Origin: Planctomycetales bacterium 10988
GTDB taxonomy: Bacteria > Planctomycetota > Planctomycetia > Pirellulales > Pb10988
Assembly (NCBI GenBank): GCA_009664345.1
Contig: CP043547.1
Location: forward strand, 1,550,001-1,614,000
Direction of reading: 5' to 3'
DNA length: 64,000 nucleotides
Of the stretch, positions 8,094 to 21,598 are shown one piece after another. The notes beneath the pieces were generated by a model, which was given only the letters and a program-made list of their open reading frames with translations, ran no database searches and was not told the DNA's origin. Numbering within the stretch: position 1 is the first letter of the stretch; each line of letters starts with the position of its first letter. A program made the translations under genes and the position numbers.

Positions 8094-11054
8094 ATGGATG
8101 AAGAACGAGCCAAGATTCAAGAAGACCTGCGGGGGCTCTTGTCTTGCGAAGTACATTGCGATGATGTGTTTCTGCAAATGTACGCGAGTGATGCCAGTAT
8201 TTATCAAATCCTTCCTTTAGGCGTCATCCGTCCCCATTCGACCGAAGATGTAGTGGCTTGTGTGAAATATGCCCGCGAGCACCACTATCCCCTTCATGCC
8301 CGCGGGGCAGGAACCGGACTGGCCGGGGAGTCCCTTGGTCGTGGGTTGGTCCTCGACTTTTCCCATTCGATGCGGCGTGTGTTGTGGTATCAAGGGAATC
8401 AGGTCCGCATTCAGCCCGGTGTCACCCTTCATCGCTTAAATCGTTTTTTGAAAACGCATGGGCAACAATTTCCCATCGATCCAGCGAATCGCACCGTGAC
8501 GACGATGGGGAGTGTCATTTCTCTCGATGCGGCAGGAAGTCATTCTCTAAAGTATGGAACGGCAAGGGATTATGTCGAAAGCATGCAGGTGGTCTTGAGC
8601 GATGGGCAGATCATCGAATTGAAGCGAGGCCCTCAAGAAGGTCTACGCAGTGGGGAAGAATCGATCCCACAGAGGTTGGCGTATGCTCTTCGTGAGGAAT
8701 TCAAGAAATATGAACGTCCGCTCAGGCGGTATAAAACCAAGGTCCAATTCAATCGGTCTGGCTATGCAGTTTGGGAGAGTCAGACGGAGGAATCGGTTGA
8801 CCTTTGTCGGTTGCTGGTTGGTAGCGAAGGGACTTTGGCTCTGATTACTGAAATGACTCTGCGAACGGTGCCTTTGCCAAAGAGCCGGGCGGTTTCTCTT
8901 CTCTTCTTTCAGTCTTTGGAAAGAGCCGCCACGGCTGCCTTGGAAGTGAAGAAGTTTTCGCCGAGTGCCTGCGATTTACTCGACCGGCGTTTGTTAAGTC
9001 TCGCCCGGGATACCGATTCTCGCTTCGAATTGCTGATTCCCGCGAATGTGGAAGCGGCCTTACTAGTGGAACAGGAAGGGGATTCGCAGGAAGAGGTCCG
9101 TGAAAAGTTGCAGGCAGTGGTGGAACGTATCTGTTACGACCTCAATCAAGCCTTCGATTCGCGAGAAGCTTACGACGAAAAGCAAGTTCACCTTTTCTGG
9201 CAATTGGCTCAAACCGTTGTCCCGACGCTTTATCGGATGAAGGGAAATACGCGGCCCATTCCTGTGGTGGAAGATTTTGCGGTTCCTCCCGAGTCATTGC
9301 CGGAGTTTACCCTCAAATTACAAAACATTCTGAAAAAGCACCAAGTCACCGCTTCGCTCTTTGCTCACGCTGGACATGGGCAGTTGCATGTTCGTCCCTT
9401 CTTTGACTTGACCGATCCACAGGATGTTCGCACCGTTCAGGCTTTGGCAAATGATCTCTATAGTGAAGTTTTTCGGATCGGCGGAACGATCAGTGGGGAA
9501 CACGGCGATGGCCTTAGCCGAACCCCGTTTGTGGAAAAGCAATACGGTGATGTCTATCCGCTCTTTCGCGAGATCAAACGGATTTTCGATCCACACAATA
9601 TATACAATCCGGGCAAGATCGTTGGCGATGACCCTTTCGCAACCATTCGCTCTCTGCGGACGGATACCTTGCAGCAACAGAAGGTCACCGGGCAAACCGA
9701 AGAGGAGGCCCCGCCTACTTTGGTGACATTGCAACTTGATTGGATTGTGGATGAGGTCGTTCAGGCTTCTCGCTTATGCAACGGTTGTGGACAATGCCGA
9801 TCGACGGAACAAGGGACGCGAATGTGCCCGATTTTTCACTTTGCCCCGGCGGAAGAAGCGTCGCCTCGGGCGAAGGCCAACCTCATGCGAGCGAGTTTGG
9901 CGGGAAATTTGTCGCCGGAAACTATGGTCAGCGACGATTTCAAAAATGTGATGGACCTCTGTGTGAACTGCAAAATGTGCCGCCTGGAATGCCCTGCCTC
10001 GGTGGATATTCCTCGTTTGGTTTTGGAAGCGAAAGCGGAATACGTGGCCCATCACGGCTTGCGTTCGACTGATTGGCTTTTGACTCGACTTCCTGAATTA
10101 AGTGCGTTCGCCAGTCTCATTTCGCCGGTTTCCAATTGGGTGCTGACGAATCCGCAGGCACGTTGGCTCTTGGAAAAGGTTTGGGGATTGGCACAGGGTC
10201 GAAAACTCCCGCAGTATACTTCCCGCCCTTTTCTTTCAAGAGCGGCCCGACGCGGCTGGACGCGGCCCATTCCGGGGAACCGGCGGAAAGTGGTTTTCTT
10301 TGTCGATCTCTATCCGAACTATTTCGATCCGGAATTGGCGGAAGCCGTGGTCGCGGTATTGCGAAAAAATGGGATTCCGGTCTTCGTGCATCCGGGGCAA
10401 ATCCCTTCCGGCATGCAACTTATTTCGCTCGGTGCCGTTGATCGTGCTAGGAAAGTCGCCAAGCACAACGTCGCTTTATTAGCCGAAGCGGTTCGGAAAG
10501 GGTATGATATTATAACGGCGGAGCCTTCTGCGGTGCTGTGCCTGCAAGAAGAGTATCCGGCGATCTTGGACGACCCGGATGCGGACCTCGTGGCGAAACA
10601 TTCGTATGAAATTGGCAACTATCTCTGGAATTTGCATCGCGAAGGCGGTTTGCGACTGGATATGAAACCGATCGCCCGACGCTTGTTTTATCATGAGCCC
10701 TGTCATCAAAAGGCCCTCGGCAACTCGATGGTGAACCTTCAACTTTTGCGTCTCATTCCGGAACTTGAAGTTATCACCCAGGACCTAGGCTGTTCGGGAA
10801 TGGCGGGGACTTTTGGGCTGATGCAAAAAAATTATCGCATGAGCCTCAGAGCGGGATGGCAGCTAATCTCGCAAATGCGGGAGGATACCATTCAAGGCGG
10901 GACAACCGAATGTAGTTCGTGTAAAATGCAGATGGAGCAAGGAACGCGGAAACCGACGATTCACCCGATGAAACTTTTGGCACTTTCTTATGGGATGATG
11001 CCAGAAATCGAGCAGACTCTCACCACCCCCGGCGATGCGCACACCGTCACCTAG
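8094..11054 (+). CDS. Fused FAD-linked oxidase and Fe-S (CCG domain) dehydrogenase, glycolate/D-lactate type
   Basis: 986 residues, a natural fusion of GlcD-like and GlcF-like parts. Residues 40-220 are a PCMH FAD-binding domain (HARGAGTGLAGESLGRGLVLDFS; GSVISLDAAGSHSLKYGTARDYV); residues 230-525 are the FAD-oxidase C-terminal domain with HAGHGQLHVRPF and SGEHGDGLSRTPF. Two [4Fe-4S] motifs follow: CNGCGQCRSTEQGTRMCP near 562 and CVNCKMCRLECP near 623. Two cysteine-rich domains end the protein, with HEPCHQKALG near 867, LGCSGMAGTFG near 899 and ECSSCKMQME. Such enzymes oxidise a 2-hydroxyacid and pass electrons to quinone or another carrier at the membrane. Exact substrate is not determined. 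The stop is only 15 bases before moaD, suggesting a shared transcript. Confidence 0.92.
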   Translation: MDEERAKIQEDLRGLLSCEVHCDDVFLQMYASDASIYQILPLGVIRPHSTEDVVACVKYAREHHYPLHARGAGTGLAGESLGRGLVLDFSHSMRRVLWYQGNQVRIQPGVTLHRLNRFLKTHGQQFPIDPANRTVTTMGSVISLDAAGSHSLKYGTARDYVESMQVVLSDGQIIELKRGPQEGLRSGEESIPQRLAYALREEFKKYERPLRRYKTKVQFNRSGYAVWESQTEESVDLCRLLVGSEGTLALITEMTLRTVPLPKSRAVSLLFFQSLERAATAALEVKKFSPSACDLLDRRLLSLARDTDSRFELLIPANVEAALLVEQEGDSQEEVREKLQAVVERICYDLNQAFDSREAYDEKQVHLFWQLAQTVVPTLYRMKGNTRPIPVVEDFAVPPESLPEFTLKLQNILKKHQVTASLFAHAGHGQLHVRPFFDLTDPQDVRTVQALANDLYSEVFRIGGTISGEHGDGLSRTPFVEKQYGDVYPLFREIKRIFDPHNIYNPGKIVGDDPFATIRSLRTDTLQQQKVTGQTEEEAPPTLVTLQLDWIVDEVVQASRLCNGCGQCRSTEQGTRMCPIFHFAPAEEASPRAKANLMRASLAGNLSPETMVSDDFKNVMDLCVNCKMCRLECPASVDIPRLVLEAKAEYVAHHGLRSTDWLLTRLPELSAFASLISPVSNWVLTNPQARWLLEKVWGLAQGRKLPQYTSRPFLSRAARRGWTRPIPGNRRKVVFFVDLYPNYFDPELAEAVVAVLRKNGIPVFVHPGQIPSGMQLISLGAVDRARKVAKHNVALLAEAVRKGYDIITAEPSAVLCLQEEYPAILDDPDADLVAKHSYEIGNYLWNLHREGGLRLDMKPIARRLFYHEPCHQKALGNSMVNLQLLRLIPELEVITQDLGCSGMAGTFGLMQKNYRMSLRAGWQLISQMREDTIQGGTTECSSCKMQMEQGTRKPTIHPMKLLALSYGMMPEIEQTLTTPGDAHTVT

Positions 11055-11069
11055 CCCCAACCCTTCGAC

Positions 11070-11333
11070 ATGAATCAAGTAAAGAGCATACACATTGAGG
11101 TCCTGTTTTTTGCATCCGCCCGTGAAATTACCGGGTCTTCGAACTATCGGTGTGAACTTCCTGAGGGGGCAACAATTGAGGACCTCACCGCACACTTGAT
11201 CGAGAGATTTCCAGAACTCGCCCAACGACTCCCGAGGTGGCAAATCGCACTTAGACAAGAGTACGTCAACCCGCAGACTCCACTGAGCGATGGGGCCGAA
11301 GTTGCCTTAATCCCGCCAGTGAGCGGGGGCTGA
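11070..11333 (+). CDS. moaD: Molybdopterin synthase sulfur carrier subunit
   Basis: 87 residues with a ubiquitin-like fold pattern and the required C-terminal Gly-Gly (ALIPPVSGG), which is adenylated and thiocarboxylated before sulfur transfer. ILFFASAREITG-type N-terminus and LPEGATIEDLTAHL are typical of MoaD. It is followed by moaE and moaA, giving three steps of molybdopterin synthesis in one run; moaC and later genes are not in this window. Confidence 0.94.
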   Translation: MNQVKSIHIEVLFFASAREITGSSNYRCELPEGATIEDLTAHLIERFPELAQRLPRWQIALRQEYVNPQTPLSDGAEVALIPPVSGG

Positions 11334-11377
11334 TCCTTGGCGACCTTCGAACGATAACGAATTGAAAAGAACTCCTT

Positions 11378-11818
11378 ATGGTGGAATTGACCGAAAAGCC
11401 GATTGATACCGAAGCTATTTTGCAGGCGATTTCCGATACCCGCTGCGGTGCGGCTCTCCTGTTTCTTGGAAATGTTCGTGAATGGACCGGCGATCAGCAG
11501 ACCAATCATCTTGTTTATGAAGCCTATCGCCCGATGGCCGAAGCAAAAATGAAGGAGCTAGAAGCCGAAGCCCGCCGACGTTGGGAAATACTTCAATGTT
11601 CGATCGTCCACCGCTTGGGAAAATTGGAACTTGGCGAAGCGAGTGTCGCGGTCGCGGTTTCTTCTCCCCATCGCCGGGATGCCTTTGAGGCCGGCCAATG
11701 GCTGATCGACACCTTAAAGGAAGTCGTTCCGATTTGGAAACAAGAGGTCTGGGCAGATGGTTCTGCGGAATGGGTGCATCCTGAAAACGAATCGAACCCT
11801 ACCCCGGAGTCCTCTTAG
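11378..11818 (+). CDS. moaE: Molybdopterin synthase catalytic subunit
   Basis: 146 residues. Key stretches are CGAALLFLGNVREWT (family GAxxxFxGxVR), LVYEAYRPMAEAKM, IVHRLGKLELGEASVAVAVSSPHRRDAFEAGQWLIDTLKEVVPIWKQEVWADGSAEWV, which carries the catalytic lysines (PIWKQE). It converts precursor Z to molybdopterin with thiocarboxylated MoaD, whose gene is 44 bases upstream. Confidence 0.96.
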   Translation: MVELTEKPIDTEAILQAISDTRCGAALLFLGNVREWTGDQQTNHLVYEAYRPMAEAKMKELEAEARRRWEILQCSIVHRLGKLELGEASVAVAVSSPHRRDAFEAGQWLIDTLKEVVPIWKQEVWADGSAEWVHPENESNPTPESS

Positions 11819-11868
11819 CGAATCTTCCAAAAACCGCTTTTGGTTTTTCAACTTACATTGATGAGTCC

Positions 11869-12879
11869 TTGAACCCGATGCCTGAAACGCCTCCGTTGCT
11901 CGATTCCTATGGCCGACCTCATGCTGATTTGCGAATCAGTGTGACGGATCGGTGCAACATTCGTTGTTTCTATTGCATGCCGAATGAGCACGTGATTTTT
12001 CAGGAACGCTCGATGTTGCTGACGTTTGAAGAGATCGAACGCTTCGTGAAAGTTGCGGCGAAATTGGGCATTCGGAAGCTGCGGCTGACTGGTGGCGAAC
12101 CGCTCGTTCGTCGGGAATTGCCGGTACTTATCGAGAAATTGGCGAAGATCGAAACCATTGAAGATATCGCATTAACGACGAACGGACTGCTCCTAAGTCG
12201 TTATGCACAAGCTTTGAAAGACGCCGGACTTCATCGATTGAATATCTCGCTCGATGCCCTTTCCGCGGAGAAATTCGAACGGATTACCCGTCGCAAGGGT
12301 TTTAGACAAGTCCTCGATGGGATTCATACCGCCCAAGCGATTGGCTTTGAAAAGATCAAAATCAATGCGGTTGCCATCGCGGGGTTGAGCGAGGAAGAGA
12401 TTGTCCCCTTTGGACACTTTGCTAGAGAACAAGGACTTGAGGTTCGCTTCATCGAGTTCATGCCACTGGATGCAGAACAAAATTGGCAATCCAATCAAGT
12501 TCTCTCGGGCGAAAAAATCATCACGATGTTGAGCGAAGCGATCTTGCCTTTAGTTCCTTGTCCACGACCCGACCCCAGCCAGCCCGCTACCGATTATCAA
12601 TTTGAAGATGGTCGAGGGAGAATTGGCTTCATCAACCCCGTAACGCAGCCTTTTTGTTCCACTTGCAATCGCTTGCGGATCACCGCCGAGGGACAAATTC
12701 GCAATTGCCTTTTTTCCCAAGAAGAATGGGACGCACGTTCTTTGATGCGAAAGGGGGGAACGGATCAAGAACTCAGCGAATTGATACGAGCTTGCGTCCT
12801 GGCCAAAAAAGCAGGGCATGGTATCCATTCCGAAGACTTTCATCGTCCTGCACGGGCCATGTATCAGATTGGTGGATAG
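11869..12879 (+). CDS. moaA: GTP 3',8-cyclase (molybdenum cofactor biosynthesis)
   Basis: 336 residues from a TTG at 11869 or 333 from the ATG at 11878; neither has a clear Shine-Dalgarno, so the start is uncertain by three codons. The radical-SAM cluster is CNIRCFYCMP near residue 27, with LRLTGGEPLVR for SAM binding. The C-terminal second cluster is FCSTCNRLRITAEGQIRNCLF, and the protein ends in the conserved Gly-Gly (YQIGG) tail needed for activity. It makes cyclic pyranopterin precursor from GTP. It closes the moaD-moaE-moaA run. Confidence 0.96.
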   Translation: MNPMPETPPLLDSYGRPHADLRISVTDRCNIRCFYCMPNEHVIFQERSMLLTFEEIERFVKVAAKLGIRKLRLTGGEPLVRRELPVLIEKLAKIETIEDIALTTNGLLLSRYAQALKDAGLHRLNISLDALSAEKFERITRRKGFRQVLDGIHTAQAIGFEKIKINAVAIAGLSEEEIVPFGHFAREQGLEVRFIEFMPLDAEQNWQSNQVLSGEKIITMLSEAILPLVPCPRPDPSQPATDYQFEDGRGRIGFINPVTQPFCSTCNRLRITAEGQIRNCLFSQEEWDARSLMRKGGTDQELSELIRACVLAKKAGHGIHSEDFHRPARAMYQIGG

Positions 12880-12892
12880 GAGCGGAGCAAGC

Positions 12893-13216
12893 TTACTTTT
12901 CGTTATGAAGATCGATTGAACAGCAACCGAAGTGAATTTTGCGAATCTCTCCTTGGGGCGAACCCTCCGGAATCACATCAGGATGGACTTGATAATAAAC
13001 ATAACGTCCATCTTTCTTGGCGAGAACCACCCCGGCATTTCTTAAAACTCCCAGGTGATGAGAAATCTTCACAATTTCATCGCCCAAATCCGTTGCCAGC
13101 TGACTTACACTCTTCTCGCCACCTTCGAAAAGGCTGAGAACAATCCGCAATCGTTCAGGGTCCGCAAGTGACTTGAGACGACTGGCACACTCTTCAAATT
13201 CTTGCTTCTGACGCAT
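12893..13216 (-). CDS. ArsR/SmtB-family transcriptional repressor with C-terminal vicinal cysteines
   Basis: 107 residues with a winged helix-turn-helix: LADPERLRIVLSLFEGGEKSVSQLATDLG, then the recognition helix VKISHHLGVLRNAGVV and the wing KKDGRYVYYQV. The classic ELCVC metal motif of helix alpha-3 is absent (SVSQLATDL). Instead a cysteine pair, C98-C99, sits in the C-terminal tail (HFGCCSIDL), with another Cys at 10. C-terminal Cys pairs form the As(III) or organoarsenical site in some atypical ArsR repressors. It is divergent from the TonB-receptor gene across a 587-bp gap, so it may control the block from 13804 to 19512. What it senses is inferred from context. Confidence 0.85.
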   Translation of the reverse strand: MRQKQEFEECASRLKSLADPERLRIVLSLFEGGEKSVSQLATDLGDEIVKISHHLGVLRNAGVVLAKKDGRYVYYQVHPDVIPEGSPQGEIRKIHFGCCSIDLHNEK

Positions 13217-13803
13217 TGAAGCGAATCCTGTACTATTTCCTGAACGAGACTACCAGAGTGTCGGAATCATCGCCGCAAACGATGCTGAAAAGTCCGAGAA
13301 GTGTCCTGAGCAGGATATTCATTGAGTTGCCGTACTTTGATCAGCACGCAACAGAACCAAGAGCCGATAGCCAAAAACTGTCAGAAAAAGAGTAATTCTC
13401 TGAAATATGATTATCAAACAATCATTGACCACCATCCCTACTCTCAGCATAGCAAACTTTTTCTGAATTCTCTAGTCTGCAATCCTTGATCGAGCCTAGG
13501 ATTCCTTGATTTCAGGAGGAAGGCATCGTTCAAGCTTTAATAAAATTAATTCCGATGGAAAATTATCAAACTATTGTTCATGCTTCAAGAATTAAATTTG
13601 TATTCATTTAAATAAACTTGCCAAGCTTTCTTGTTTATTTTCCAGTGAAAGTCGAGTTTATTTCTCTACTTCATCCAGCACAATCATTTTACCTGATTCC
13701 TAACAATGACTAGCCTGGATCTATAGTGAGAGATATATATTCTTAAATTCGTAAGAATGTCTGTGTGTGAATGAGAGACGGAACCGAAGTAGGAGATAGA
13801 GAC
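13217..13803. other. Divergent intergenic region between arsR-like and TonB-receptor genes
   Basis: About 590 bp, clearly AT-richer than its neighbours, no convincing open frame. It contains a perfect 7-6-7 dyad at 13739-13758 (listed separately) and a weaker 6-bp dyad ATGATT/AATCAT at 13407-13425. It should carry the promoters for both flanking genes. Confidence 0.6.
13739..13758. promoter_or_regulatory. Inverted repeat upstream of the TonB-receptor gene, candidate operator
   Basis: ATTCTTA (13739-13745), 6-nt spacer, TAAGAAT (13752-13758): perfect 7-bp arms, ending 45 bases before the preferred ATG at 13804. The position suits a repressor site near the promoter. The binding protein is not known; the divergent ArsR-like protein is the obvious candidate. 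Confidence 0.45.
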
Positions 13804-16092
13804 ATGAAGTTTCATACTCAGGACGTCCCTTTTTTGTTAGGATGCAGGATGCAACATCACTTGTTCACTTCATATCCATTGAATGCTTCCATTTTAACCT
13901 TGGTAGTATTACTAGGTACTTTACCCTCCTGGGCACAGGAAACCGACGAAGATCCACTAACGCTTCCTGAAACGATCGTAGAAGGTGAGCAAGAATCCGA
14001 CCCGGACGAGGAACCAATTGCTCCCCCTCAGATACCTTCGCCGGTGGATTTCCAACCTCCATCGATAATCCCACCGCCCAATCAAACAACACCGGGCTCT
14101 TTACTGGAAGGAACCGTTTTTTCCAGCCCTGCTGTGGAAGGGTACTATGCTGAATCTTCCACAACGGGAACACTGCTAGATATCCCAGATTTAGAGCTGC
14201 CGATGACCGTGGATGTTGTCTCAGAAGAAGTCATCGAAGATCAACAAATTTTAAACTTTACAGAAACCTTGCGAAATGTGCCTGGCGTTGTTCAAGCAGG
14301 GGATGGAATTTTTGGAGATCGTTTCTTCATTCGTGGGCTAGAAGTACGGTCGCGTGACTTTCGCAAAAACGGCTTTTTGGATCCGACCTATACACCCCGA
14401 GATTTTGCAAATATAGAACGTGTAGAAATTTTAAAAGGTCCCGCTTCGGTTCTCTATGGCTCCGCGGCACCTTCCGGGACAGTGAATGTCATTACAAAAA
14501 AACCGCTCGATGCAGAGTTTACGGACTTTAATTTTCAATTCGGAAGTTTTGGACAAGATCGCTATGTACTCGACAATAATGGCTACGTGACTTCCGATGG
14601 AAAAGTCCTTTATCGTTTTATAGGCGCTTATGAAAACACAGGTAGTTTTCGTGACTTCGCCTCGACCGAACGCTTTCTATTAGCCCCATCCATCCGTTGG
14701 TTGGTAAGTCCCGATACGATGATCACTTGGGAAGTTGAAATCGCCCGCAACGATCGCCTCGGTGATACTGGAATTCCTGCTATCAATGGGGACCCGTTAG
14801 CGCTTCCCATTGAGCGCTATGTCGGTGAGCCGGCGAATGACTTTTTACATACAGAAGACTATCGAACTTCAGTCGTGTTAAATCATCGTTTCAATGAAGA
14901 TTGGTCTCTCTATGCCGGAGCAAGTACGGTCTTCTATGAGTTCCCCGGTTCCCAAACGTATCCGGTTGCTCAAGTCGGACCGACGCAGTTTTTTCGCTTA
15001 CGTCAAGATTTTCAAGATCAAGAAAATTCAAGCTCGCTTATTGTTAACTTGACCGGTGATCTCTGTTTAGGGGGACTCAAGCACAAAGTACTTTTTGGAA
15101 CGGAACAAGTTTACTATGACACCGAATCCTTCTTTGGGGGGAATAACCTCGATTTCTTTGATGCGGCAAACCCTGTCTATAATAATCCTCCAGTTGGCCC
15201 TGTAGCTTTCAGCACCAACTATCCGGTCTTTCGCCAGGTCCGCCATGGCTATTATTTCCAAGATTTAGTTGAACTTAATAAACATTGGCAAGTGTTAGGT
15301 GGTGTGCGATTTGATGAAGTCGATCTCACGTATGATCGAAATATGATCCGAACCGAGCAACGATTCGAACGAACGACTCCTCGGGTGGGTGTCGTCTTTC
15401 AACCGATTCCCGATACCCTTATGACTTATTTTTCCTACAGCCGTTCATTCAATCCTCCCGGTGGGGGTGGATTTGGGCCGACCAACGATCCTCGTTTGGC
15501 GGAACTAGGGGAATCCTATGAAGTCGGAATCAAAACCCGCTTTTTGGATTACCTGATTTTACACGCGGCCGGCTATCACATTACGAGAGAGAATGTTCCT
15601 TACCAGCAACAGGTTCTTCCCTTTGGTTTCTTTCAAACGGGGACCGAGCGAAGTCAAGGGGCCGAAATTGAGTTGGTTGGCAAAATTTCCGAGCGGTGGG
15701 ATTTGATTGCGAATTATGCTTACACCGATACTCGGCTAACCGATGCCAGCAATCCTGATATCTTCTTTGGGCAACGACAACGAAATGTTCCTTACAATCA
15801 ATCAAGCATTTGGAGCCGCTATGACCTTGTAGATAACGGTTGCCAAACGATTGGTGCCGCTTTGGGTTATGTCTATGTTGGAGATCGAACCGCCGATGTT
15901 CCCGGCACGGTGATTCTCGATTCTTATACCCGGTGGGATGCCGGCATGTATTACCGACAAGGCCCGATTGATGCTGCGTTGTATCTAGAAAATATCTTTG
16001 ATATTCGCTACGCGGCGAGTTCGATCAATGAATTCCAAATCTATCCCGGTGCTCCCTTTAGTGCCCGTGCGCAGATCGGAGTTCGCTTCTGA
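13804..16092 (+). CDS. TonB-dependent outer-membrane receptor (siderophore-receptor type)
   Basis: About 762 residues from the ATG at 13804, chosen because AGGAG at 13791 sits about 8 bases before it; the frame is open upstream to 13771. A signal segment (ASILTLVVLLGTLPSWAQ) is followed by an acidic, Pro-rich linker, then the plug domain: IEDQQILNFTETLRNVPGVV, FFIRGLEVRSRDF, IERVEILKGPASVLYGSAAPSGTVNVITKKP. The rest is a 22-strand-type barrel with alternating aromatic residues, ending in Phe (QIGVRF) as outer-membrane proteins do. It imports a scarce substrate using TonB energy. It heads a co-directional run with a PhyH-type oxygenase, an MFS transporter and an ArsI-like fusion, so the ligand may be an arsenical or a metal chelate rather than a classic siderophore; this is inference. 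Confidence 0.92.
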   Translation: MKFHTQDVPFLLGCRMQHHLFTSYPLNASILTLVVLLGTLPSWAQETDEDPLTLPETIVEGEQESDPDEEPIAPPQIPSPVDFQPPSIIPPPNQTTPGSLLEGTVFSSPAVEGYYAESSTTGTLLDIPDLELPMTVDVVSEEVIEDQQILNFTETLRNVPGVVQAGDGIFGDRFFIRGLEVRSRDFRKNGFLDPTYTPRDFANIERVEILKGPASVLYGSAAPSGTVNVITKKPLDAEFTDFNFQFGSFGQDRYVLDNNGYVTSDGKVLYRFIGAYENTGSFRDFASTERFLLAPSIRWLVSPDTMITWEVEIARNDRLGDTGIPAINGDPLALPIERYVGEPANDFLHTEDYRTSVVLNHRFNEDWSLYAGASTVFYEFPGSQTYPVAQVGPTQFFRLRQDFQDQENSSSLIVNLTGDLCLGGLKHKVLFGTEQVYYDTESFFGGNNLDFFDAANPVYNNPPVGPVAFSTNYPVFRQVRHGYYFQDLVELNKHWQVLGGVRFDEVDLTYDRNMIRTEQRFERTTPRVGVVFQPIPDTLMTYFSYSRSFNPPGGGGFGPTNDPRLAELGESYEVGIKTRFLDYLILHAAGYHITRENVPYQQQVLPFGFFQTGTERSQGAEIELVGKISERWDLIANYAYTDTRLTDASNPDIFFGQRQRNVPYNQSSIWSRYDLVDNGCQTIGAALGYVYVGDRTADVPGTVILDSYTRWDAGMYYRQGPIDAALYLENIFDIRYAASSINEFQIYPGAPFSARAQIGVRF

Positions 16093-16121
16093 TCAGCGTT
16101 GACAACCACGAAGATTGACAA

Positions 16122-16197
16122 GAGGCCACGGAGGATGATAAATTTATAACGTTCTTAATAACGTTAGATTATCCTAAGGAGCATCCCCCGTGGCCTC
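16122..16197 (+). promoter_or_regulatory. Long inverted repeat that would bury the start codon of the PhyH-type gene
   Basis: Left arm 16122-16138 (begins GAGGCCACGG) pairs with right arm 16181-16197 (ends CCGTGGCCTC): 10 perfect base pairs, one mismatch, then 5 more. The GTG start at 16190-16192 lies inside the stem and its ribosome site AAGGAG (16176-16181) sits at the loop edge. There is no T-run, so it is not an ordinary terminator. As RNA it would restrict translation initiation; regulation by a ligand or protein is inferred. Confidence 0.6.
16147..16166. promoter_or_regulatory. Perfect 7-6-7 dyad inside the loop of the larger inverted repeat
   Basis: TAACGTT (16147-16153), spacer CTTAAT, AACGTTA (16160-16166). 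It could be a nested hairpin in the mRNA leader or a DNA operator. It has the same geometry as the dyad at 13739 but a different sequence. Confidence 0.5.
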
Positions 16198-16978
16198 ACT
16201 TACTTCCACGACTCAGCCGATCTCGCCGGAAATGATTGCTCGCTATCACGAAGAAGGCTTTCTCATCGTTCGTGATCTCTTTTCTGCAGAAGAAGTCGGA
16301 GCATTGGCCGCAGAGGCAGAATCCCTCATCGATCGTCAGGAATTGATTGATTCCGACAACATCCGCTGCCGCTGGTCGAATCATCACGAGACGGAAGAAT
16401 GCCTCTTTGATTGCTTTGATCCGGTGATCGATCTTGCACCCGTTTGTAACTATTTTGCAAACGATAAACGTATCCTTTCAATTTTAAACGCTATCTATCA
16501 AGAACCTGCTCACCTCTTTAAAGATAAACTCATCTTCAAAAAGCCTGGTGTCCGCGGCTATGCCTTACACCAAGACTATATTGGATGGGATAGCTTTCCT
16601 GAAAGTTTTGTTACCGCCATCGTTGCGATTGATAAAACAACAAAAGAAAACGGCGCGACAGAGGTCTTTCCTTGCCTCCATCAACAAGGTTATCTCTCGC
16701 CTCGGGACGGCCAGTATCACGAACTTTCGCTTGAACATATTGATGAGTCGCAAGGGGTGCCTTTAGAGCTTTCTCCTGGTGATCTTGCACTTTTCAGCGG
16801 ATTTACTCCTCACCGCTCCTCGCCGAATTATAGTGACCAATGGCGCCGTCAGTTGTATTTAAGTTACAATTCGGCTTCCGATGGAGGAGATCAAAGGAAA
16901 GCGCACTATCAGGAGTTTCATCAATGGCTTCACGAAAAGTATGCAGAATATGGAAAGACGGAAGTTTATTTCCAGTAA
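16190..16978 (+). CDS. Phytanoyl-CoA dioxygenase (PhyH) family Fe(II)/2-oxoglutarate oxygenase
   Basis: 262 residues from a GTG at 16190 with AAGGAG 8 bases upstream. The N-terminus reads YHEEGFLIVRDLFSAEEVGALAAEAE, as in PhyH proteins. The iron-binding HxD is HQDYIGWD near residue 126, and the distal His and 2-oxoglutarate Arg lie in LSPGDLALFSGFTPHRSSPN and RRQLYLSYN near 205-225. It should hydroxylate a small organic substrate in the cytoplasm. It stands 97 bases after the TonB-receptor gene and 48 bases before an MFS gene, in the arsenical-type block, so its substrate may be a compound imported by that receptor. The start codon lies in a stable hairpin. Confidence 0.9.
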   Translation: MASLTSTTQPISPEMIARYHEEGFLIVRDLFSAEEVGALAAEAESLIDRQELIDSDNIRCRWSNHHETEECLFDCFDPVIDLAPVCNYFANDKRILSILNAIYQEPAHLFKDKLIFKKPGVRGYALHQDYIGWDSFPESFVTAIVAIDKTTKENGATEVFPCLHQQGYLSPRDGQYHELSLEHIDESQGVPLELSPGDLALFSGFTPHRSSPNYSDQWRRQLYLSYNSASDGGDQRKAHYQEFHQWLHEKYAEYGKTEVYFQ

Positions 16979-17026
16979 ATAAATCCTTACTTCAAAATCC
17001 TTTAGTTGGATTGGATTAAGTTGTTT

Positions 17027-18346
17027 ATGTCAGCGGAAAAAATTAAACAAAACCGTAAGCGTTTTTCAATTTATTACGGTTGGGTCATCGTGGTTCTGGC
17101 TGCGATTGCCATGGCGGCGACACTCCCCGGAAGAACGCACGGACTGGGCTTAATCACGAAGCGTTTGCTGGAAGATTTACATCTTTCACCAGCGAACTTT
17201 GCCTGGATGAATGTCATCGCCACATTAATCGGAGCGGCATTTTGCCTCCCTTGTGGCTGGATGATCGATCGTTACGGAATTCGTCGTGTTTGTGGAATGG
17301 TGTTTCTGCTGTTAGCCTTGGCAGTGTTAGGACTCAGCTCAATTTCTGACACTCGGATTTTACTCATTTTGCTGACTTTCACACGAGGATTTGGACAGAG
17401 CATGCTCTCCGTGGTAAGCATTACCATGGTCGGCAAGTGGTTTCATCGACGGATCGGCCCAGCCATGGGAGTCTATTCGGTACTGCTGAGTTTATTGATG
17501 GCAGCAGGAACAGGATTACTGGGATCAGAAATTATCCGAGTCGGCTGGCGAGAAGCCTGGGCCTCGCAAGGTTGGATTTTACTCTGTTGTGTTCCGTTCA
17601 TGTTTTTATTAGTCCGTAGTCAGCCGCGTGATTTTTCAATAGAATTTCAAACGAAACATGAAGCGTCTTCGTCCACTTGCCAGCCGGTCGGAGCAACATT
17701 AGTTCAAGCCCTCCTGACACCATGCTTTTGGATGTTTGCGCTGAGTATCTCCTTTTTTGGATTGATCAGTTCGGGACTTTCTTTATTTAATCAATATGTG
17801 TTGGAAGAACGAGGCTTTTCTGAGGAAGTGTTTCATTCTGTTCTAGTGATAGGTTTGCTTTTTGGAATGCTCGCCAATCTAGGTGCCGGTTGGCTTTCGA
17901 AGAAAATTTCCCTTGAAAAGCTTCTGTGTTTTTCCATGTTGTTATTAGCGGGAACGCTCTTCTGTTTTCCTTTTGTACAAACAATTTTTCAAGTTTACGC
18001 TTATGCGGCAGTGAAAGGAATTGCAGGTGGAATTCTGACAGTTCTTTTCTTTGCCGTCTGGAGCCACGGCTATGGAACCACCCAATTGGGACGCATTCAA
18101 GCTGCTGCTCAAATGTTAACAGTTCTCTTCTCTGCCGTGGGTCCGATCTTTGTTGAATCCTCTCGAAATTATACCGGTTCCTATATGCAAGTTTTTTTCT
18201 TGGCAGCAGGGATTTCTGCCAGTTTCGGAGTTTTGGCTTGGTTTACACAGGTGCCAAGTGTCGCCCGAGGAGATTGGCAAGAAAAGAATTCCGAAGACAA
18301 TCTTTCCAATTTAACACACACTGAAATTTCAGGGAATCTTCAATGA
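17027..18346 (+). CDS. Major facilitator superfamily transporter, monocarboxylate-porter-like
   Basis: 439 residues from the ATG at 17027 (a TTG at 17006 is possible). About 12 hydrophobic segments; begins RFSIYYGWVIVVLAAIAMAATLPGRTHGLG, the YYGWVIV opening seen in MCT/oxalate-formate type MFS carriers, and has the loop motif CGWMIDRYGIRR between TM2 and TM3. A hydrophilic central loop (QTKHEASSSTCQPVG) divides the two halves. It ends by overlapping the next gene's ATG (18343) by 4 bases, so the two are translationally coupled. Context suggests export or import of the substrate handled by the PhyH and ArsI-like proteins. It resembles neither ArsB nor Acr3. Confidence 0.88.
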   Translation: MSAEKIKQNRKRFSIYYGWVIVVLAAIAMAATLPGRTHGLGLITKRLLEDLHLSPANFAWMNVIATLIGAAFCLPCGWMIDRYGIRRVCGMVFLLLALAVLGLSSISDTRILLILLTFTRGFGQSMLSVVSITMVGKWFHRRIGPAMGVYSVLLSLLMAAGTGLLGSEIIRVGWREAWASQGWILLCCVPFMFLLVRSQPRDFSIEFQTKHEASSSTCQPVGATLVQALLTPCFWMFALSISFFGLISSGLSLFNQYVLEERGFSEEVFHSVLVIGLLFGMLANLGAGWLSKKISLEKLLCFSMLLLAGTLFCFPFVQTIFQVYAYAAVKGIAGGILTVLFFAVWSHGYGTTQLGRIQAAAQMLTVLFSAVGPIFVESSRNYTGSYMQVFFLAAGISASFGVLAWFTQVPSVARGDWQEKNSEDNLSNLTHTEISGNLQ

Positions 18347-19512
18347 CTCAAAGCACTGTGAATACTTCGATTGAACAGGATGTAACAAAGAAAAATCTGC
18401 CTACGAAATTTCATCTGGCGATCAATGTGGCTGATCTGACAAAAAGTATTGACTTTTTTTCTATCGTCTTTGATTGTGGACCCGCAAAAAGTCGGAGTGA
18501 TTATGCGAAGTTTGAATTGGAAAACCCTCCGGTAGTGCTTTCATTGGAACCTGTCGCTCCTGAAAGTTCTGGAGCTTTAAATCATTTAGGGTTTCGTGTT
18601 CCTGATTCCGGTCAACTTGTGGAAATGCAACGTCGTCTAGAGGCAAATGGAATTGAAACGAATCGTGAAGATGGGGTCGAATGTTGTTATGCTCGTCAGA
18701 CGAAATTTTGGTTTCATGATCCAGATGGAAACTTGTGGGAAGTTTATACACTTGATGAAGACCTCGACCACCATGGGCATGGGGAATCGACCAACTGTCA
18801 GACTTCCACTTCAGAAACTCCTTCCACTTGTGGAACAAGCGGAAAAGAAACACCACTAGCCACGCTTCAAACGCTACCGAAAGCGAACAGTTCCCCTCCA
18901 AGGGCTTTATCGCTGTGGTCACATCGCATGGGTCAACCACTTCCAAATCAACTTTATATGTTGGATGGGACGGTGGATGAGGCGCACCTTCAAGGGAGTT
19001 TCAATCACCGTTGTTCCACTTCAGAGAGGTCCAATTTATTTCATGAAATCTTTCGAGTTTTAAAGCCTGGTGGAAAACTACATGTTCATGTATTGACAGC
19101 TGATCGAGAGGTGCTTTCTGACACTTTAAATTTGCCAGGTCCCGCAGCTTCGATTGATTTCGTACCGGCAACTTCTTCGGTCGTAAAAGAAATGGAAGCA
19201 ACTGGCTTTCAAGCCGTTCAATTATCGCGTTATCATCGTAAGCCATGCTTCACCCGAGATGGAATCTCGATGCGCGAGACGATAATTGAAGCTTGGAAAC
19301 CTTTATCATTGGAAAGTAGACAAAATCTGATCGAAGTCGTTTATAAAGGTCCGTTTCAAGAAATTGCTTTAGATAATCGACACACCTTTCGCCGGGGGGA
19401 GTTTGTATTGGTTGACCAAGCGACGCTTCAACTGATTGAGCGTGCTGCGCAAGATGCCTTTACAATTGTTTCTGTGGAAGAAGCGGCGCCCGATTGCGGT
19501 AGTTTGCATTAG
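18343..19512 (+). CDS. ArsI-like C-As lyase (VOC) fused to a C-terminal ArsM-like methyltransferase fragment
   Basis: 389 residues. Residues 22-140 are a VOC domain closely resembling ArsI/CadI: KFHLAINVADLTKSIDFFS, RSDYAKFELENPPVVLSL, LNHLGFRV, GVECCYARQTKFWFHDPDGN, LWEVY. The metal triad would be H24, H81 and E133, and C114-C115 matches the vicinal pair that binds trivalent methyl- or aryl-arsenicals in ArsI. After a His/Cys/Ser/Thr-rich linker (141-185), residues 190-389 carry NLFHEIFRVLKPGGKLHVHV, a post-motif III of class I methyltransferases, and VVYKGPFQEI with RRGEFVLV and a terminal DCG, reminiscent of the ArsM C-terminal region. The SAM-binding motif I is missing. Activity expected: Fe(II)/O2-dependent cleavage of a C-As bond; role of the second half is unknown. 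Confidence 0.82.
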   Translation: MTQSTVNTSIEQDVTKKNLPTKFHLAINVADLTKSIDFFSIVFDCGPAKSRSDYAKFELENPPVVLSLEPVAPESSGALNHLGFRVPDSGQLVEMQRRLEANGIETNREDGVECCYARQTKFWFHDPDGNLWEVYTLDEDLDHHGHGESTNCQTSTSETPSTCGTSGKETPLATLQTLPKANSSPPRALSLWSHRMGQPLPNQLYMLDGTVDEAHLQGSFNHRCSTSERSNLFHEIFRVLKPGGKLHVHVLTADREVLSDTLNLPGPAASIDFVPATSSVVKEMEATGFQAVQLSRYHRKPCFTRDGISMRETIIEAWKPLSLESRQNLIEVVYKGPFQEIALDNRHTFRRGEFVLVDQATLQLIERAAQDAFTIVSVEEAAPDCGSLH

Positions 19513-19665
19513 TGGACGGTTTTTTCTTTGTTTCGAACGATCCAACGAGCTTTTCTTCCTCTAAGTTGCCCCTTGACTTTTCGTTCTATCCATGAGATTT
19601 TTTGAGCGTTCAAAGGTTGAAAACCTGTTGTGAAATGTTGGATAGGACGACTAAAGGGGCTAATT

Positions 19666-20835
19666 GTGTGGATTGAAGTTGATTATCAATTTCCTGAGCA
19701 TTTGGATGCGGCGAAGCAAGCTAAAGTACTGGCGATCGGACAAACCGCAGGGACTTGGGATGAGCGTTTTGCCGCTCAGGCGGAGGCTTTGCAACAACAT
19801 CTTGGTGAGCCTGGCGAACTCGTGCGGAATGAGGATGGAACACAAGTCGCTACGGTTTGCTATCCTTTGATGAATGTCGAAGGGGATATTGCCAGTTTAT
19901 TGACGATGATCTTTGGCAAGTATTCGATGGCCGGTCCGGCGAAGATCGTTGCCATTCGGCTCCCAAAAGAGTATGGCACCAAGCCCAAATTTGGAATCAA
20001 AGGGCTTCGTGAGTTGACCGGCGTGAGCGGGCGACCTTTTGTAATGGCGATTCTCAAGCCAGCCTTTGGCTTGAAGCCCGAGCAACATGCCAAGATCGTC
20101 CGTGAGGTGGCGGCAGCGGGTTTGGACTTTCTCAAAGATGATGAAATCCTGGTAGAGACAGAAACATCACCCGTTCAGGAACGTTTGGCTGCCTGCCGTG
20201 AGGCCATTCAAGCAGCAAAATCCGAGACCGGCCGCGAGATGCTGTACGCGGTGAATCTCACAGGTCGGGCCGATGAACTTCAACAGAAAGCTCGCGAATT
20301 GGTCAAGTTAGGGGCAAATGCTCTGCTCTTTAATGTCTTGGCATACGGATGGAGCGTGATGGAATCGCTTGCAGCCGATCCTGAGATCGACGTGCCGATC
20401 TTCTTTCATCCGGCCTTGGCAGGGGCGATATGTGCGGCCCCCGATTATGGCTTTCGTTATTCCGTTCTCCTAGGAACCCTTGCCGCCAGGTCAGGGGCGG
20501 ACGCTGTTCTTTATCCGGCATCTTATGGAAGTCTCCCCTTCGAAGCTTCGGAAGAAGCGGGGATCCGCACCGCTTTGCGAAAACGAAATGTGATGCCGGT
20601 TCCCTCAGCGGGCATTCATCCCGGCGTTGTGCCTCAGGTGTTGGCTGATTATGGGACCGACGTCGTGTTAAATGCCGGAACTGGAATTATGGACCATCCG
20701 CTCGGGCCGGGGGCCGGAGTGAAGTCTTTTTTCGAAGCACTTGATCGCTGTCAGGCGGGACTTCCGATGACTGTGGATTCCGTCGAGGAAGGACCTTTGA
20801 AGGAGGCGTTGAGAAAATGGGGTGGCTCTGCATAA
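19666..20835 (+). CDS. mtnW: RuBisCO-like protein, probable 2,3-diketo-5-methylthiopentyl-1-phosphate enolase
   Basis: About 389 residues from a GTG at 19666, preferred because AAAGGGG lies 7 bases upstream and family alignment begins there; the frame opens upstream to a GTG at 19630. RuBisCO large-chain fold markers are RPFVMAILKPAFGLKPEQHA and AGLDFLKDDEILV, whose Lys157, Asp159 and Glu160 match the carbamylated Lys/Asp/Glu magnesium site. FGKYSMAG places Lys85 at the position of the MtnW catalytic base. HPALAGA and NAGTGIMDHPLGPGAG (phosphate-binding) follow. Residues of true RuBisCO are not all kept, so it is form IV. The next gene is mtnX-like, which fits the methionine-salvage step after MtnB. 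Confidence 0.86.
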   Translation: MWIEVDYQFPEHLDAAKQAKVLAIGQTAGTWDERFAAQAEALQQHLGEPGELVRNEDGTQVATVCYPLMNVEGDIASLLTMIFGKYSMAGPAKIVAIRLPKEYGTKPKFGIKGLRELTGVSGRPFVMAILKPAFGLKPEQHAKIVREVAAAGLDFLKDDEILVETETSPVQERLAACREAIQAAKSETGREMLYAVNLTGRADELQQKARELVKLGANALLFNVLAYGWSVMESLAADPEIDVPIFFHPALAGAICAAPDYGFRYSVLLGTLAARSGADAVLYPASYGSLPFEASEEAGIRTALRKRNVMPVPSAGIHPGVVPQVLADYGTDVVLNAGTGIMDHPLGPGAGVKSFFEALDRCQAGLPMTVDSVEEGPLKEALRKWGGSA

Positions 20836-20890
20836 TAAGTGGGCAGCTTTGAAACTATCTTCCGCTTCTACTTCATGAGGATTGCGATTC

Positions 20891-21598
20891 ATGCCCAGTT
20901 CGACCCCTTCGATCTCCGAGGAGTTTTCCGAGTCCGATCAGCGTCCTACCAGAGCGGTGTTTTGCGACTTCGATGGAACGATTACCGCGAGAGAAACTTT
21001 CGTTGATGTCCTGAAAACCTTTGCTCCGGAGAAGTCGGAAGCTTTGATCCCGGAAATGTATGCGTTGCGGCTGACCTTGCGCGAAGGGGTCCGGCAGATT
21101 TTAGAATCGATCCCCAGTGCTCAACTTCCCGCCATGTTGGATCGGGTACGTTCTGCCCCATTGCGGCCCGGAGTTGCTGAGTTTCTACATTTTCTGCAAG
21201 AACAACAAGTTCCGTTTGTCGTTATCTCTGGCGGTTTGGAACTCTTTGTTCGCGAGGTGTTGCAAGAGTTCGAGCCTTTCATCGCCGGGATTTATGCTGG
21301 AAAAATCGACAGCTCGGGGGAATATTTGCGGGTTTTTTCCGATTTTGAAGACGAGCAAGAGTTGATCTCGAAAGTCAAAGTCATGGCCGAATATCCAGCC
21401 GAGGAATCGATTGCGATTGGCGATTCCGTTACGGATTTACAAATGGCTCAAGAAGCGGATCGGGTTTTTGCCCGGGATCGGTTGGCAAAGTACCTGATCG
21501 AGCGAGAGGTTACCTTTGAACCGTGGGAAGATTTCCATCAAATCCAAGCCCGGCTGAAAAAACTTTGGGAGACGAAAGTCGATTCCCTTTCTTCATAA
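20891..21598 (+). CDS. mtnX: HAD-family phosphatase, probable 2-hydroxy-3-keto-5-methylthiopentenyl-1-phosphate phosphatase
   Basis: 235 residues from the ATG at 20891, which follows GAGG at 20877-20880; a TTG at 20882 is in frame. The HAD nucleophile motif is FCDFDGTITARET (D26, D28), motif II is VVISGGLELFV, motif III Lys lies before AEYPAEESIAIGDSVTDLQMAQEAD (motif IV). This is the PSP/MtnX type of HAD enzyme. It sits 55 bases after the mtnW-like gene, so the pair would carry out the two steps done elsewhere by MtnC. Residues 1-20 are a disordered leader. Confidence 0.85.
   Translation: MPSSTPSISEEFSESDQRPTRAVFCDFDGTITARETFVDVLKTFAPEKSEALIPEMYALRLTLREGVRQILESIPSAQLPAMLDRVRSAPLRPGVAEFLHFLQEQQVPFVVISGGLELFVREVLQEFEPFIAGIYAGKIDSSGEYLRVFSDFEDEQELISKVKVMAEYPAEESIAIGDSVTDLQMAQEADRVFARDRLAKYLIEREVTFEPWEDFHQIQARLKKLWETKVDSLSS

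Follow-up and report, generated by a model that had tools for sequence, protein, structure and literature searches.

Planctomycetales bacterium 10988 carries a five-gene cassette that, on balance, seems to detoxify an organoarsenical and break it down oxidatively under the control of ArsR. The cassette lies in a 64-kb stretch of its 6.65-Mb single-contig genome (G000:C1:1550001–1614000; hereafter the window, whose own numbering is used for all positions without another label) and comprises an ArsR/SmtB repressor, a TonB-dependent receptor, a PhyH-type Fe(II)/2-oxoglutarate oxygenase, an MFS transporter, and a fusion of an ArsI-type carbon–arsenic (C–As) lyase domain with the back half of an ArsM methyltransferase. 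A preliminary description of the window, made from the letters alone, had pointed to this run of genes and read it as a putative system for the import of a complex organoarsenical, with an arsenosugar or arsenobetaine breakdown product as possible examples, followed by its oxidation, C–As cleavage, and export. The run itself is confirmed, as all five genes are at the coordinates claimed and profile searches place them in the families claimed, and the interpretation is partly supported. Gene families, conserved residues, linkage, and a shared palindrome are the direct results of the analysis, and from them we infer every chemical and transport step, including the substrate, the product, and the direction of transport.

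This function is favoured because the oxygenase and the fusion are linked in all 24 cassettes found, the fusion is identifiable as ArsI and keeps the conserved ArsI residues, and ArsR and PhyH stand in frame in one genome (G446). Moreover, it is favoured because acr3, arsC, and arsI lie beside the cassette in two genomes (G402 and G291) and 12 of 22 loci have a palindrome ahead of cassette genes; because the nearest model of the oxygenase is a methylphosphonate hydroxylase, and in phosphonate breakdown PhnY precedes carbon–phosphorus (C–P) cleavage by PhnZ; and because the Cys-Cys ArsR resembles SpArsR.

According to the proposed mechanism, a trivalent arsenical would bind to the C-terminal Cys-Cys of ArsR and release the repressor from ATTCTnACGatCGTnAGAAT sites upstream of the operon. 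The compound would be brought to the cell by the TonB receptor in this strain, or by a DUF1559 surface protein in others, and PhyH would hydroxylate a carbon attached to arsenic. The ArsI domain would hold trivalent arsenic on Cys114-Cys115 beside Fe(II) (His24, His81, and Glu133) and cut the C–As bond. The ArsM-derived half, its methyltransferase role lost, could help to bind or present the substrate, and the MFS protein would export arsenite or a product.

Conservation and Linkage of the Cassette

The 24 cassettes, that of the window included, come from scattered genomes of a relatives set, a phylum set, and an order set, plus two contigs titled Planctomycetota; the 22 genomes that bear a handle (G numbers; loci bear L numbers) belong to 10 families. 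All 24 pair an orthologous PhyH gene with a fusion gene; the two share a contig in 23 and lie on different contigs in G051. Among 57 genomes (the own genome and its relatives), eight besides the own have a PhyH orthologue (48–63% identity) together with the fusion, and the 392 phylum genomes add four with both genes and six with PhyH relatives (37–42%) lacking the fusion. Within the 396 order genomes, PhyH is found at 1e-50 in 18 and an ArsI-type match at 1e-25 in 19; the same 18 genomes carry PhyH and the fusion, and the extra ArsI-type match (G003) covers the VOC part only. This co-occurrence corresponds to a Fisher p of about 3e-30 across genomes that are related and thus not independent, and a chance neighbourhood was rejected on the grounds that both genes share the identical 18 of 396 genomes. 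A contig scan with exact peptide patterns gave four loci in all, with the fusion at two that are titled Planctomycetota and a match to the ArsM half only at two of Candidatus Brocadia, and a plasmid search returned three records with PhyH relatives of 31–37%. The preliminary description had proposed genome neighbourhoods as a check on its reading, and there the genes proved to be linked in other genomes, as the 24 cassettes attest.

The arrangement of the window recurs in G508, where ArsR is divergent from TonB-PhyH-MFS-fusion. An amplified form, TonB-MFS-fusion-fusion-PhyH-MFS-fusion, is present in G599 (L080:3887–13058), with three fusions and two MFS genes, and owing to these extra copies there are 26 fusion copies overall. 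In G446 (L082:6208–7302), ArsR and PhyH share a single 364-residue frame, and most of the ArsM part is missing from the fusion beside it. ArsR matches below 60 bits, PhyH matches below 150 bits, and fusion matches below 100 bits were left out of the residue counts given in the following sections.

The ArsI–ArsM Fusion

The fusion gene (18343–19512, + strand) overlaps the MFS gene by 4 bases and encodes an ArsI-type VOC domain (residues 22–161) followed by the ArsM-derived part (residues ~180–389). Judged by its sequence, the product is a predicted ArsI C–As lyase domain followed by the C-terminal half of ArsM, with no S-adenosylmethionine (SAM)-binding half. The ArsI/CadI model NF041414, whose scope includes CadI besides ArsI, matches all 26 copies at E ≤ 1e-5 and gives the window protein 139.6 bits (cut-off 116). 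In phmmer searches, the VOC domain matches a solved C–As lyase at 2e-25 versus 0.0018 for FosB, and the first seven Foldseek hits are C–As lyases, fold hits that back the families without active-site detail, given weak structure models (mean predicted local distance difference test scores of 58.0 and 55.5, three sequences each). An assignment to FosA or FosB was rejected, the closest PDB relatives in sequence as well as in fold being solved C–As lyases. The catechol dioxygenases, which the preliminary description had named as a possible alternative place for the domain, were likewise rejected, as the catechol 2,3-dioxygenase model weakly matches six of 26 copies, with a best value of 1.2e-7 versus 4.5e-43 for ArsI/CadI; by phmmer, Foldseek, and NF041414, the domain falls with ArsI.

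H81, E133, and C114 are present in 26 of 26 copies and H24 and C115 in 24 of 26, and all five residues of the window protein align with those of the solved lyase. H24, H81, and E133 are presumably the Fe ligands of ArsI (His or Gln, His, and Glu), and C114-C115 its vicinal Cys pair. When 37 VOC domains are placed in an unrooted tree, a branch with 92/84 support separates the 26 fusion domains from 11 stand-alone ArsI domains, TcArsI among them. Residue V102 of TcArsI (numbered as in PDB titles) corresponds to R or K in 24 of the 26 fusions, and to V in eight, R in two, and N in one of the 11 stand-alone domains. The cassette enzyme is like ArsI (TcArsI, PDB 5c4p and others) in its VOC fold, Fe ligands, vicinal Cys, and the Lys after the Cys pair, and the cassette is like arsI-bearing ars operons in having ArsR nearby, in 14 of 24 cases. 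It is unlike ArsI in its fusion to the ArsM back half, its PhyH partner, the R or K at V102, and its own side of the supported branch.

With respect to the second half, the ArsM model NF040538 matches 17 of the 26 copies at 1e-5, and the window fusion covers positions 185–336 of its 356, with 49.9 bits for a cut-off of 500. The window fusion aligns to residues 192–332 of the full-length, 388-residue ArsM of its own genome and the other copies align within 147–347. The main blastp alignments of the copies begin at residue 147 or later of this protein (tblastn, 139 or later), of which SAM motif I starts at residue 69. The SAM-binding N-terminal half with its GxG motif is not present in the fusion and an active methyltransferase was rejected, the alignments beginning past SAM motif I. 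The preliminary description had rightly recognized an ArsI fusion, but was silent on the fact that its methyltransferase part is the ArsM back half only. The cysteines of the SNC and SGC motifs of ArsM, which we take to be its arsenic-binding residues, are replaced in the fusion, as read by eye from the alignment, and a newly conserved Cys302 is present in 22 of the 26 copies. The fusion is like ArsM in having its C-terminal half, including the YKGPF..RG region in 21 of 26 copies (five lack the terminal YKGPF part), and unlike it in lacking SAM motif I and the aligned arsenic cysteines and in bearing Cys302. A stand-alone ArsM back half of 157 residues, with the same ACF motif, is encoded in G423 (L064:9984–10457, − strand), in a 20-kb locus that holds no ArsI match.

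The PhyH Oxygenase and the MFS Transporter

The PhyH gene (16190–16978, + strand; PF05721, 102 bits) starts with GTG, preceded by AAGGAG. Its product keeps the HxD...H triad and the paired arginines, and H127, D129, H208, R219, and R220 are retained in 24 of 24 orthologues. Its best NCBIfam model is the methylphosphonate hydroxylase PhnY* (NF052437), at 92.6 bits versus 30.2 for the next model, so that by profile score the enzyme is related to PhnY* but falls outside that family. Of the 24 cassette enzymes, 22 have Cys60, versus none of seven non-cassette relatives (35–44% identity). These relatives (L065–L071) constitute a sister PhyH subfamily without the fusion; since they carry the FKDK motif too, the FKDK lysines were dropped as a substrate signature of the cassette enzyme.

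In bacteria such as Prochlorococcus and Gimesia maris, PhnY hydroxylates the alpha carbon and PhnZ then cleaves the C–P bond, as described in an excerpt of PMC6581173. By analogy, the proposed pathway would resemble this phosphonate route, in that the cassette also has a predicted Fe(II)/2-oxoglutarate hydroxylase beside a second iron oxygenase expected to break a carbon–heteroatom bond. However, the second enzyme of the cassette is a VOC-type C–As lyase and not an HD-type PhnZ.

The MFS transporter (17027–18346, + strand; MFS_1, 141.4 bits) is cassette-specific and occurs in 19 of 24 cassettes. It has no PDB sequence relative at 0.001, and no ArsJ or ArsK model matched it at E ≤ 0.01 in a library whose content of such models was not checked.

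ArsR and the Shared Palindrome

ArsR (12893–13216, − strand; NF033788, 72.4 bits for a cut-off of 55) bears C-terminal Cys98-Cys99 (GCC) and Cys10. An ArsR above 60 bits was found in 14 of the 24 fetched loci, and these repressors have the C-terminal Cys-Cys in 14 of 14 and Cys10 in 13 of 14; the ArsR of a separate ars locus in the own genome lacks the GCC motif. According to excerpts of PMC13236881 and PMC11868830, SpArsR senses methylarsenite (MAs(III)) via two cysteines. The cassette ArsR shares with SpArsR, a repressor selective for MAs(III), a vicinal cysteine pair at the C terminus that has no third cysteine close by, and differs from it in that the N-terminal Cys10 could give a third ligand; the comparison is drawn from these published descriptions.

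The palindrome ATTCTnACGatCGTnAGAAT, which recurs ahead of cassette genes in the form AtTCtnACGatCGTnaGAaT, is represented by two sites in the window. The first, ATTCTTAAATTCGTAAGAAT (13739–13758), is situated 45 bases upstream of the TonB ATG and scores 22.8 bits with the window held out of training, and the second, GTTCTTAATAACGTTAGATT (16151–16170), is immediately upstream of PhyH and scores 14.7 bits under the same condition; they are the highest and second-highest motif sites in the 64 kb. In the operator test, each locus was held out of training, sites of at least 16 bits were counted, and upstream regions made up 3.1% of 417 kb; L061 and L085 (near-identical sisters) and L049 (fusion only) were left out of 25 loci, leaving 22. 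This test gave 14 upstream sites in 12 of the 22 loci versus one elsewhere, the latter (L086) about 500 bases ahead of the cassette DUF1559 gene.

Because the seed of the motif was originally picked out by eye, in the window and in other loci, the window site is no blind hit and the test is not fully blind. An initial search for repeats, which required arms of 8 bases or more, had missed the palindrome. In an earlier held-out run, the best site of the locus was upstream in 16 of 22 loci, with 2.5 expected. However, seed controls weakened this best-site measure, the real seed giving 18 of 22, shuffled seeds up to 18, and random seeds up to 17, with some control seeds landing on unrelated motifs. 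The mask is the probable cause, as it extended 130 bases into the conserved starts of coding regions. Once the mask was tightened and a score threshold applied, a motif emerged from 49 of 150 random seeds; among the six with the most loci, three are the same palindrome and three are related palindromes, and the other 43 reach at most three loci at 16 bits. These sites may be the operators to which the cassette ArsR binds.

Exchangeable Surface Components

The TonB-dependent receptor gene of the window (13804–16092, + strand) encodes a siderophore-type outer-membrane receptor like FhuA and FoxA (TIGR01783, 313.6 bits for a cut-off of 223.5); its reading frame is open from 13771, and AGGAG precedes the ATG at 13804. 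A homologue is present at the cassette in six of 24 cases, or in seven with the distant receptor of G153 (L063:11701–14046; 21% identity, divergent from PhyH), beyond which a recheck of 25 loci found none. In 13 cassette genomes searched at 1e-15, three besides the own have a homologue of the window receptor, in each solely at the cassette, and the own genome has two further, weaker homologues. The receptor is thus real but not core. The preliminary description had made it the importer within a fixed set of five genes, a role given up here, as only seven of 24 cassettes have a TonB receptor and 14 have a DUF1559 gene in its place.

The DUF1559 genes (PF07596, with a pilin-type N-methylation motif according to Pfam) lie within 5 kb of those 14 cassettes; none has both DUF1559 and TonB, and neither was found at the cassettes of G051, G459, and G605. 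DUF1559 is an abundant family, and its candidates number 16 to 184 per genome. Among the genome-wide matches to the L033 copy, the cassette copy nevertheless ranks first in six of the seven genomes with a match at 1e-60, and second in G032. Since a palindrome site precedes DUF1559 in L060, L062, and L046, the surface gene looks like a member of the same regulon. CobW-type GTPase genes are found at four of 24 cassettes (e.g., L050:12966–14114).

Arsenic Context and Alternative Functions

The arsenic setting of the cassette is independently supported by its neighbours in the sister genomes G402 and G291, where arsR, acr3, arsC, and a plain arsI come after the cassette, on its strand and within about 4 kb (the family scan covered G402). 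At about 2.95 Mb, the own genome has a separate ars locus that comprises arsR, a plain arsI, and two arsC-type genes; its full-length ArsM-type gene lies at about 3.59 Mb. The absence of classical arsenic genes that the preliminary description reported was borne out for acr3 and arsC, tblastn of the 64-kb window giving neither of them, nor a second arsI. No ACR3 or ArsB match was obtained at 0.001 in the own genome, and the same models match in seven and six of 14 control genomes, respectively; this leaves room for the MFS protein as the exporter. Of 13 cassette genomes, ACR3 is above the cut-off in four and ArsB slightly above it in two (34.9 and 30.8 versus 22.2 bits).

Several observations weigh against a role in organoarsenical breakdown. 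The acr3-arsC-arsI neighbours occur at two of 24 cassettes only, those of sister genomes; ArsR is near 14 of 24 only; and 10 of 22 loci (L032, L033, L047, L050, L053, L063, L082, L084, L086, and L087) lack a held-out upstream site of 16 bits. The MFS transporter is absent from five cassettes (G032, G044, G051, G446, and G605), with a homologue at the end of another contig in G044, and the second Cys of the pair is missing from two of 26 fusion copies (G446 and G599_7636). The score of PhyH is far below the PhnY* cut-off of 500 bits, and arsenic binding by the ArsM half would be a guess because the aligned arsenic-site cysteines are lost. The FhuA-type receptor and CobW, the latter at four of 24 loci, equally fit metal or siderophore traffic.

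The breakdown of an organoarsenical could take the specific form of an oxidative C–As cleavage pathway, a counterpart of PhnY-PhnZ, in which PhyH would hydroxylate an arsenic-bound carbon of dimethylarsenate or a larger natural organoarsenical, the lyase formed by ArsI and the ArsM remnant would cut the bond, and the capture part (TonB or DUF1559) would be exchangeable; we advance this version tentatively. Doubtful is plain methylarsenite resistance, in which the modified ArsI would demethylate MAs(III), the MFS protein would export As(III), PhyH would be accessory (e.g., in by-product removal), and TonB or DUF1559 would be incidental. This would agree with the identity of the ArsI domain, the Cys-Cys ArsR, and the known role of ArsI in demethylating MAs(III), as presented in excerpts of PMC10579292 and PMC6205960. 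However, the ArsI described there works alone, whereas here PhyH and the fusion are paired in 24 of 24; palindrome sites stand ahead of TonB or DUF1559 in several loci; these surface genes are cassette-linked or the best copies in their genomes; and R or K replaces TcArsI V102, beside the Cys pair, in most fusions.

It is unlikely that the cassette does not act on arsenic and serves instead in metal or iron acquisition, with a recruited ArsI-like VOC enzyme and an ArsR for another soft metal. The FhuA-like receptor, the CobW GTPases, the inclusion of CadI in NF041414, and the many metals sensed by the ArsR family would fit, but the full ArsI active site with its Cys pair, the ArsM-derived partner domain, the adjoining acr3-arsC-arsI genes in two genomes, and the 17 of 24 cassettes at which no TonB receptor was found argue against it. 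Least probable is a biosynthetic or metallophore cassette, in which PhyH and the ArsI-like enzyme would make an arsenic-containing or other small molecule, exported by the MFS protein and re-imported by TonB: the siderophore-type receptor, the MFS gene adjoining tailoring oxygenases, and the arsinothricin ArsM as best model of the ArsM-derived domain speak for it, and the lack of a SAM site in this domain, the absence of a backbone-building enzyme from a sample of neighbours scanned for families, and the radical SAM gene moaA beside the window cassette, without a homologue at 15 other loci, speak against it.

Neighbouring Genes

Directly downstream of the cassette (19630–21598) are genes for a RuBisCO-like protein of MtnW type, which scores 372 of 409 bits, and for an MtnX-like HAD phosphatase, which scores 148 of 292 bits; neither reaches the cut-off of its model. 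On the other side (8094–12879), a protein of 986 residues that reads like a fused flavin adenine dinucleotide oxidase and iron-sulfur protein is accompanied by small moaD-like and moaE-like genes and then by moaA, just upstream of ArsR; moaA was confirmed by a family match, and the others were named from reading their sequences. The moaA, RuBisCO-like, and phosphatase genes have no homologue at the 15 other loci, nor at a further nine.

Implications for Organic Arsenic Breakdown

Titles and abstract beginnings in the open-access literature, a scope outside which most subscription papers fall, gave no description of this gene set, nor anything like it on ArsI fusions with a methyltransferase or dioxygenase, planctomycete ArsI, or TonB receptors with organoarsenicals, and titles gave nothing on phytanoyl-CoA dioxygenase with ArsR and arsenic. 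We know of no genes for the breakdown of arsenosugar or arsenobetaine. According to an excerpt of PMC10579292, it is unclear how dimethylarsenic is demethylated, and a cassette with two conserved enzymes and its own regulator makes this question directly testable. Moreover, the fusion would be a case of an ArsM fragment reused as a partner no longer able to bind SAM in the usual way. If the oxidative C–As pathway is true, these would be genes for the aerobic breakdown of arsenicals beyond MAs(III). The cassette is, as far as its genes can suggest, a good candidate for the missing machinery of organic arsenic breakdown.

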